A DNA stretch of 36,721 bases, taken from positions 1 to 36,721 of the forward strand of contig JADLDB010000130.1 in the NCBI GenBank assembly GCA_020846875.1, given 5' to 3'. The notes beneath the pieces were generated by a model. It saw only the letters and a program-made list of their open reading frames with translations. It ran no database searches and was not told where the DNA came from. The translations under genes were made by a program, and so were the position numbers. Origin of the DNA: Myxococcales bacterium (GTDB lineage: Bacteria; Myxococcota; Myxococcia; Myxococcales; Myxococcaceae). This document shows positions 1 through 29,684 of the stretch, piece by piece. Numbering within the stretch: the first letter of the stretch is position 1; every line of letters starts with the position of its first letter.

Positions 1-133
1 GACATCGGCGATTTGCGTCGCATCCCGTCGTTGCTCCTCGGTCAGCTGCCCACCAGCAGCTTCCCTCGTCGCGCCTTGGTCTGCTCGCAACTCACCGACG
101 TCACTCGGTCCGCCAACCTGATCGGCGTTCTAG
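1..133 (-). repeat. Dispersed structured repeat, copy A (truncated by window edge)
   Basis: The reverse complement of this stretch aligns without gaps to 29521-29653 with 5 mismatches in 133 bp by hand comparison. It begins with CTAG at 130-133, whose TAG (read on the minus strand) is the stop codon of the Nudix gene, and runs off the left edge of the window. The last 31 bp expected from copy B, including the far terminal inverted repeat, lie outside the window. The inner arms GTGACGTCGG and CCGATGTC are both visible. Orientation relative to the upstream gene is the same as in copy B. It is a non-coding repeat; the reading frames through it look like shadows. Confidence 0.9.
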
Positions 134-672
134 CGCCACGCCTCGTACAAGAGCGCCGCCAGCACCAGCGCGTGGGTGATCTGCCCCTCGCGCACCAGGC
201 GCTTGATCTCCCCCCGCGGCACCACCTCCACGCGAAGGTCTTCACTGGTGTCGTGCCGCCCGTCGTGCACCCGATCGCAGTCCAGGGCGAGGAAGGTGTG
301 CAGCCGGTTGGCGAAGACGGCCGGGTTGGGGTGGGACACGCCCAGTGGCTCGAGGCGGGCAGGGCGATAGCCGGTCTCTTCTTCCAGCTCTCGCGCGGCG
401 GCGGCGGGAGGAGCCTCCCCCTCGTCCAGCATGCCCCCGGGGAGCTCCAGGTGGTTGGACCAGGTGCCGAAGCGGAACTGCCGCACCAGCACCACCTCGC
501 CCGCGCGGGTGACGGGGATCACGTTGCACCAGTCGGGGGCGTCGATCACCGTGCGCACGTAGGGCTTCCCGTCGCGGGGATCGGCCACGTCCAGGGTGCG
601 TGCGCGGAAGATGTGGAAGTCCTTCGTCGATCGCTCCCCAAGCAACGTCCACTGAGGCGGTTGTTGGCTCAT
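130..672 (-). CDS. Nudix hydrolase, probable ADP-ribose pyrophosphatase
   Basis: The 180-residue protein has a complete Nudix box from G80 to Y102: GMLDEGE, seven residues, then RELEEETGY, matching GX5EX7REUXEEXGU. The glutamates would bind the Mg2+ that supports pyrophosphate-bond hydrolysis. The preceding strand with VRQFRFG and ELPGG is typical of the ADP-ribose/NDP-sugar branch (NudF-like), which cleaves ADP-ribose to AMP and ribose-5-phosphate in the cytoplasm. Exact substrate is inferred. The ATG at 672 has no clear Shine-Dalgarno. The gene is divergent from the protease gene, with 83 bp between starts. Its TAG stop lies within the CTAG end of repeat copy A. Confidence 0.9.
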   Translation of the reverse strand: MSQQPPQWTLLGERSTKDFHIFRARTLDVADPRDGKPYVRTVIDAPDWCNVIPVTRAGEVVLVRQFRFGTWSNHLELPGGMLDEGEAPPAAAARELEEETGYRPARLEPLGVSHPNPAVFANRLHTFLALDCDRVHDGRHDTSEDLRVEVVPRGEIKRLVREGQITHALVLAALLYEAWR

Positions 673-3993: not shown

Positions 3994-5166
3994 CTACCTC
4001 TGGCGCGTGAGCTGGGAGACGGCCTCGCCCAGCCCTTCCAGGGTCAGAGGGTACATCGGGTAGACCTTGCGGAGTACGTCGATCGTCGTCTGCCACCAGG
4101 CCGACGGGGGCTCGGGGTTCATCCACACCGACGCGGGGTAGTGCTCCCGCAGCTTCGCCATCCACATCAGCCCTTCCAGCCCCTCGTCGCCAGGCCAGCC
4201 GGAGCCGCTCATCAGCTCCCACGGCGCCATCAGCGCGTCGCCCACGATGATCAGCTTGTAGCGGCGATCGGTCTCGGTGAAGAGCTCGGACACCTTCATG
4301 GGATCCGCGAAGCGTGCGCTCTTGTACACGCGGCCGTAGACGCAGTTGTGGAAGTAGTAGGTGCGCAGCTCCTTGAAGTGGGTGGCCTTCTTCGCCGCGG
4401 TGAAGAGGCGCGACATCAGGTGGGAGTACGGATCCATCGAGCCGCCCACGTCCATCAAGAGGATGACGCGGGTGTTCGACTTGCGCGGCGGGCGGGTCAC
4501 CACCTCGAGCTCGCCCAAGTTCCGCGCCGTCTCGTCGATCGTCTTGTCGAGATCCAGCTCCTGCTCGGTGCCCTCGCGGGAGAAGGCCCGCAGCTTGCGC
4601 AGCGCCATGCCCAACTGGCGCACGTCCAGCACCAGGTCGTCCCGGTAGTCCTTGAAGTGCCGCTCCCCGGCCACGCGGATCGCGCTGCGCCCTCCGCCCG
4701 AGCCGCCCACGCGGATCCCCGGCCGCGCCGCCCGCCCGGAGTGCCCGAAGGGGGACGTGCCCCCGGTGCCCACCCACTTGTTGCCGCCGTCGTGGCGCTC
4801 CTTTTGCTCGCGCAGGCGCTCCTCGAAGAGGCGCTCGAGCTCCTGCGGATCGAGCTGCTCGAGCAGCGCCCGCTCCGCGTCGGTCAGCTCCGGCAGGCGG
4901 CGCCGCGCGTCCTTGAGCCAGTCGAGGAGCTGCTGGTGCAGCTCGACCGCCTGGGACTCGAGGCCCTGGAACACCTTCGCGAAGGCCTGATCGAACGCGT
5001 CGAGGTGCTTCTCGTCGTGCACCAGGAGCGCGCGGGAGACGAAGTAGAAGCCTTCCAGCGAGCTCTCGTGCAGCCCCTCCTTGAGCGCCGCGGCCAGGGC
5101 CACCGCCTCCTGGGCGCCCACGGGCACCTTGCGCGCGCGCAGCTCGTAGAGGAAGGGAATGAACAT
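3994..5166 (-). CDS. VWA-domain protein of the CoxE-like family, MoxR partner
   Basis: The 390-residue protein has an N-terminal helical region, a charged glycine-rich linker (about residues 125-165) and a C-terminal VWA domain. The metal-site motif is LLMDVGGSM, where the first serine of DxSxS is replaced by glycine. Later VWA elements are YYFHNCVYGRVY and KLIIVGDALMAPWEL. Such proteins pair with MoxR AAA+ ATPases in chaperone or cofactor-insertion systems. The gene lies 3 bp downstream of the moxR stop (5170) and just before the cNMP-binding gene. The substrate protein of this pair is not indicated by the neighbours. Confidence 0.87.
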   Translation of the reverse strand: MFIPFLYELRARKVPVGAQEAVALAAALKEGLHESSLEGFYFVSRALLVHDEKHLDAFDQAFAKVFQGLESQAVELHQQLLDWLKDARRRLPELTDAERALLEQLDPQELERLFEERLREQKERHDGGNKWVGTGGTSPFGHSGRAARPGIRVGGSGGGRSAIRVAGERHFKDYRDDLVLDVRQLGMALRKLRAFSREGTEQELDLDKTIDETARNLGELEVVTRPPRKSNTRVILLMDVGGSMDPYSHLMSRLFTAAKKATHFKELRTYYFHNCVYGRVYKSARFADPMKVSELFTETDRRYKLIIVGDALMAPWELMSGSGWPGDEGLEGLMWMAKLREHYPASVWMNPEPPSAWWQTTIDVLRKVYPMYPLTLEGLGEAVSQLTRQR

Positions 5167-27643: not shown

Positions 27644-29520
<1,877 letters not shown>

Positions 29521-29524
<4 letters not shown>

Positions 29525-29684
29525 AGCGCCGATCAGGTTGGTGGACCGAGTGACGTCGGTGAGTTGCGAGCAGACCAAGGCGCGACGAGGGAAGCTGCTG
29601 GTGGGCAACGGACCGAGGAGCAACGACGGGACGCGACGCAAATCGCCGATGTCACGACGGGAGCTAACCTGTTCGGCGCCCTAG
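29521..29684 (+). repeat. Dispersed structured repeat, copy B (complete, 164 bp)
   Basis: Bounded by CTAG at both ends (29521-29524 and 29681-29684). The ends are imperfect inverted repeats: CTAGAGCGCCGATCAGGTT and the complement of AACCTGTTCGGCGCCCTAG. Inside, GTGACGTCGG (29550-29559) pairs with CCGATGTCAC (29645-29654), then TTGCG with CGCAA, so the whole element is one long imperfect palindrome with a branched centre. Its first 133 bp match copy A with 5 differences and no gaps. The first CTAG contains the stop codon of the histidine kinase; after the last CTAG, GAGGAG is the ribosome site of the FecR gene. Confidence 0.9.

Follow-up and report, generated by a model that had tools for sequence, protein, structure and literature searches.

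A dispersed 164-bp palindrome in a Myxococcales genome

The 36,721-nucleotide stretch of Myxococcales DNA analyzed here (the window) contains, at positions 29521-29684, a 164-bp palindrome with CTAG at its start and end. What is this element, what moves it, and which part of it is conserved? An earlier reading of the sequence (the original prediction) described a CTAG-bounded palindrome with inverted ends of about 19 bp. Alignment of the genome copies confirmed this description: copy B (29521..29684, plus strand) is a complete MITE-like element in which 17 of 19 bases match between the terminal arms, forming imperfect inverted ends of about 19 bp with nested arms between them. The element folds at -88.3 kcal/mol (z = -7.4 relative to shuffles). 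It contains no transposase gene and is shorter than 500 bp, as expected of a MITE.

The predicted second copy, copy A (1..133, minus strand), corresponds to the first 133 bases of copy B in reverse orientation, with five mismatches and no gap. The alignment was as described, but the length of 133 bp is an assembly cut. The window is the whole of contig C130 from an assembly of 7.06 Mb in 200 contigs. Roughly half of the family copies are located at contig ends, with about 95-165 (mostly 125-134) bp of the element remaining. Because the window is an entire contig and many copies stop at contig ends, copy A was cut by the assembly and is not biologically shorter. We therefore rejected copy A as a truncated variant; the contig end falls inside it.

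Across this genome, BLAST returned 34 rows for the element family, equivalent to about 25-32 physical copies after allowing for split copies and contig ends. This number is far above chance, and the family is dispersed, as had been proposed from two copies. One remnant of about 27 bp, CTAGAGCGCCAACCTGTTCGGCGCTCTAA, has lost nearly all of the element interior (L037; G000:C20, about 920-947). In a plasmid search, the window element had no match, and the betaproteobacterial element described below matched two records, each only in part.

Insertions coincide with stop codons

The common pattern of the aligned copies is CTAG-AGCGCCGATCAGGTT...AACCTGTTCGGCGCT-CTAG, with one CTAG occasionally decayed; most copies have terminal inverted repeats and CTAG on both sides. 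In copy B, the left border (29521..29524) contains the TAG stop codon of a histidine kinase gene (27644..29524, plus strand), identified by its reading frame and its HAMP, HisKA, and HATPase_c domains. The right border (29681..29684), assigned from sequence and copy alignment, is the probable target copy. The CTAG border of copy A (130..133) contains the stop codon of a Nudix hydrolase gene (130..672, minus strand; Pfam NUDIX, 6.1e-17).

This arrangement extends beyond the window. A flank was considered scorable when its best coding frame towards the element had no stop in 450 bp and a GC3 - GC2 excess above 0.25. The border CTAG provided the in-frame TAG of the neighboring gene in 14 of 14 scorable flanks, one of them after a 1-nt shift; by chance, one frame in three is expected, and agreement in all 14 would then have a probability of about 2e-7. 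At the borders, the proteins have natural-looking ends that resemble those of RodA, NuoN, a chemotaxis receptor, Nudix, and histidine kinase proteins (names assigned partly by eye). At two loci (L003 and L010), two convergent genes finish at opposite borders of a single element. Genes enter from the left side of the element in seven or eight flanks and from the right side in six or seven, about equal counts that indicate no orientation bias relative to flanking genes.

Element-free sites in relatives, a check that the original prediction had suggested, agree with insertion at existing stop codons. Nudix orthologs without the element stop at the same position (...LLFEAWR-TGA at L335 compared with ...LLYEAWR-TAG in the window), and in several relatives the Nudix stop naturally lies in a CTAG. 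No polymorphic insertion was seen within one species. CTAG is probably a target duplicated on insertion rather than part of the element. Of the earlier proposal of a CTAG target duplication, CTAG at both borders is thus observed, and the duplication is its likely cause. Insertion at stop codons was not part of the original prediction, and neither were the phylum-wide core and the exchangeable ends described below. The stop-codon position explains how such elements may accumulate without gene breakage.

The ends match those of an IS1182-family insertion sequence

A related genus (genome G022) carries an IS of about 1.7 kb with CTAG borders and the ends CTAGAGCGCCGATCAGGTT and CTAGAGCGCCGAACAGGTTAG. 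The left terminal inverted repeat of copy B (CTAGAGCGCCGATCAGGTT; 29521..29539, plus strand) is identical to the left end of this IS over 19 bp, and the family consensus of the right repeat (CTAGAGCGCCGAACAGGTTAG; 29664..29684, minus strand) is identical to its right end over 21 bp, each on its own side; copy B has one difference from the consensus. The 491-aa transposase encoded by this IS belongs to the IS1182 family (E = 1.5e-93; 314 bits, cut-off 270). The element thus has ends in common with an autonomous IS of a relative, as expected of a MITE and as foreseen in the claim that it copies IS termini; the suggested search for a full-length element with a transposase sharing the ends succeeded in relatives. 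The ends of the G022 IS also occur at or near contig ends in three other genomes (G004, G029, and G030). Searches for an IS1182-family transposase were negative in the genome of the window and in the majority of relatives that carry the core.

The similarity to the G022 IS stops after the ends. A covariance model of the conserved element core (below) finds nothing in this IS or in the Anaeromyxobacter IS described below, indicating that the interior is not derived from IS1182. The ends of the element, and not its body, are IS1182-like. Among known members of the family, direct repeats of 4 bp are listed for ISPse1 (PMC3281130), and IS1272 prefers inverted repeats, which are replaced without target duplication (PMC5678879).

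The body contains a conserved hairpin core

The body of the element is centered on a hairpin core (model R1) with three tandem G-A motifs, located at 29558..29645 on the plus strand in copy B (cmsearch, 73.7 bits, E = 7.2e-17) and at 9..96 on the minus strand in copy A (82.5 bits, E = 4.1e-19). As read from the folds, the core motifs oppose each other as three consecutive tandem G-A mismatches with C-G pairs between them. Consistent with the fold and compensating changes that the original prediction proposed to look for, a 19-pair structure placed on 44 diverse cores has 83% standard pairs compared with 63% in shuffles, and 175 double changes compared with 69. The covariation score of these cores was 0.469 compared with 0.150 in shuffles, and none of 500 shuffles reached it. 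This covariation stems from the helices around and above the motifs, because the search pattern fixed both motifs.

In almost all of 34 diverse elements, the better fold is that of the plus strand. In the arms, G-U outnumbers A-C (95 compared with 63, P = 0.013), a modest excess. Tandem G-A pairs also form in DNA. Rfam gave no match up to E = 1 for six loci and none over the core at gathering thresholds for 18 others. We also considered a coding function. One consensus frame is open between the bordering stops, yet we rejected this candidate because the lengths of indels between relatives are not divisible by three and because base-pairing covariation explains the conservation. Of the predicted family of structured mobile or RNA-forming elements, the mobile character is well supported; the covariation makes RNA formation possible, but folding of single-stranded DNA would leave a very similar trace.

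The core occurs in more than 10 phyla

We scanned a collection of one genome per species for exact matches to AGGCRCGACGA and GAGGAGSAACG with 18-40 bases between them. Both inner motifs occur in at least 119 stretches of DNA, which represent more than 10 phyla; a rough estimate by hand gives about nine chance matches if the whole collection had 65% GC. The records are from Acidobacteriota, Gemmatimonadota, Elusimicrobiota, Omnitrophota, Verrucomicrobiota, Nitrospirota, Nitrospinota, Planctomycetota, Eisenbacteria, Krumholzibacteria, Binatia, Myxococcota, and beta- and gammaproteobacteria, and many of them are metagenome bins whose names may be imperfect. Among the matches listed, the spacing between the motifs is 22-29 bases in 125 of 125, and in most cases paired inverted ends enclose the core, which is set in from the left one by 55-60 (typically about 56) bp. 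The elements total about 160-168 bp, or about 237-296 bp with an extra right-hand stretch, and the ends around the core are of many unrelated sequences. Within Myxococcota, the core model detected 33 of 195 genomes (25 of 90 genera) in a patchy pattern, with 1 to more than 20 copies; this patchy, multicopy distribution fits a mobile element and not a housekeeping RNA.

Additional ends around 80 loci in other phyla yielded no convincing IS-length pair, and no mobilizer was found for end types of other groups, such as those of betaproteobacteria and Acidobacteriota. We found no description of the core in the open-access papers that were searched; subscription journals were largely outside this search, and an earlier description is possible.

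Several loci had further features. In a Longimicrobiales record (OX639991.1; L131 and L147), core copies are arranged head to tail with a period of about 171 bp and form arrays of two and three copies. In a Pseudomonadales bin (OX638346.1; L161, about 590-810), two genes a short distance apart have a core-bearing element between them; the TAG of the upstream gene is at the element border, and the second gene starts like a PIN-domain (VapC-like) toxin, as judged by eye. A locus from an Elusimicrobia bin (L153) contains a 2dG-II riboswitch at 4109-4180 on the minus strand (RF03165, 77.2 bits).

The same body carries different ends

Elements in Anaeromyxobacter-like genomes have interiors that match the window element and ends that differ. 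Within one Anaeromyxobacter genome, a single body can carry at least two unrelated end types (G057 and G054). Comparison between end types gives about 70-100% identity over the inner 32 bases of each side and about 25-65% over the outer 26, the latter range being near chance and sensitive to one-base shifts. Another Anaeromyxobacter genome (G045) has about 50 copies with CGTGAANNMATCC ends. It also contains a 1.5-kb IS bordered by CTCAG, whose ends resemble those of the element and whose transposase belongs to the IS1182 family (E = 2e-110); the ends of IS and element agree only in part. At three loci (L410, L411, and L086), this IS adjoins the right end of the element at a shared CTCAG, which does not represent a rate of adjacency because the loci were chosen for holding the element. 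At L411, elements lie on both sides of the IS, and element and IS could move as a unit. The IS1182-family transposases of G022 and G045 have no similarity detectable by BLASTP.

In betaproteobacteria, the element has CCTAGAAACCGCAGTT ends and 5-bp direct repeats (TTGAA, ATGAT, ATTAT, and ATGAA). One betaproteobacterial genome contains core-less derivatives of 117-130 bp with the same ends, read at seven sites, and another contains similar ends around an unrelated interior. The spread of core-less derivatives indicates that movement in that lineage does not need the core; a role of the core in mobility is not general. Paired ends in betaproteobacteria are about 45-370 bp apart, and no IS-length autonomous element was found among them. 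In the MITE-like elements at two loci (L312 and L313; G066), CCTGGAAANCGCAGTTGA ends enclose an unrelated interior based on GCGAATTCATTCGC, and ATGAA flanks the elements. Variants of about 310 bp in Denitromonas (L308-L310; G061) carry a further palindromic repeat (GGCCCCCACGCTCACTTCGTTCGCTGCCCCCC...), nested in the arm immediately ahead of the core.

The targets of the three groups (CTAG, CTNAG, and WTNAW) mostly hold TAG or TGA on one strand. This composition fits the survival of harmless stop-codon insertions, the stop position having been checked in the window's genome.

Candidate explanations

Two classes of mobile element other than IS1182 were considered as sources of the palindrome. 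The original prediction favored the IS5 type, and an IS5-family MITE moved by an IS5-type transposase would be compatible with the CTAG target (CTAG/YTAR) and with the DDE_Tnp_1 fold that IS5 and IS1182 transposases have in common. However, the transposases with matching ends score 314 and 370 bits with the NCBIfam IS1182 model (NF033551, cut-off 270) and 21-49 bits with IS5 models, whose cut-offs are 110-275. With no matching transposase above an IS5 cut-off, we rejected this assignment and regard an IS5 origin as very improbable. Even less credible is a REP/RAYT-type repeat moved on single-stranded DNA by a Y1 tyrosine transposase. The element is palindromic, multicopy, and located downstream of genes, and long inverted repeats are known to flank some RAYT genes (PMC3733652). 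REPs, however, are stem-loops of 20-40 bp with GTAG or CGTC tags; the present element is 164 bp with a CTAG border, and its ends are common to ISs with DDE transposases.

A reading in which the body acts as RNA deserves more weight, but we still consider it doubtful. The plus strand would be transcribed, the tandem G-A hairpin would be bound by a conserved host factor, and the ends would serve only as a vehicle. The covariation in the core, motifs that are invariant in sequence across phyla, the better fold of the plus strand, and the excess of G-U over A-C are as such an RNA would predict, and the movement of core-less copies argues that transposition by itself does not maintain the core. Against this, there is no Rfam family, the flanking genes reveal no orientation bias (about 7 compared with 7), occurrence is patchy, tandem G-A pairing is available to DNA as well, and the G-U excess is small.

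Collectively, our results make it likely that the element is a MITE with IS1182-type ends, served by a transposase in trans and inserted at stop-codon CTAG, with a conserved hairpin body that outlasts its ends. Mobilization in trans would begin when an IS1182-family DDE transposase encoded elsewhere recognizes the ends of about 19 bp; the source for the window's own genome was probably lost or was brought by a passing IS. The transposase would move or copy the element into CTAG, leaving CTAG on both sides, and the surviving insertions would be those at CTAG sites that are stop codons, where no gene is broken. The body of about 110 bp, centered on the hairpin and more widely spread than the ends, would persist as ends are exchanged between transposase lineages. 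The body most likely acts through folding of a single strand, as single-stranded DNA or RNA, and this fold may favor survival or movement of the element. A bolder version, which we consider possible but unlikely, is that the hairpin module is a persistent RNA- or single-stranded-DNA-level parasite of more than 10 phyla that takes up successive IS ends and has its own conserved host interaction.

Comparison with known systems

Considered purely as a MITE, the element is ordinary, but its combination of exchangeable ends and a core that spans phyla is not. The usual expectation for MITEs is that the ends persist and the interior is lost. In this family the reverse holds: the interior has been retained across phyla and the ends have been swapped, pointing to some function of the core and to a way for small elements to change transposases. 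The core motif can also serve as a query for finding members of a large repeat family absent from Rfam.

Like the prokaryotic MITEs Chunjie, MITEAba12, and Correia/Nemis, the element is shorter than 500 bp, has inverted ends and short direct repeats, lacks genes, occurs in many dispersed copies, and has ends in common with an IS. We know of no ordinary MITE with an interior conserved between end types; in contrast to those MITEs, the present element has an interior conserved across phyla between ends that differ. Its ends and the transposase family of the matching ISs are those of IS1182-family ISs such as IS1272 and ISPse1, but it lacks a transposase and, unlike IS1272, which makes no target duplication (PMC5678879), has CTAG on both sides. 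It resembles REPs and RAYT-associated inverted repeats in being palindromic, often downstream of genes, and present in several phyla. It differs from REPs in length and border, and the GTAG REP families are tied to Y1 tyrosine transposases and not to DDE ends (PMC3733652).
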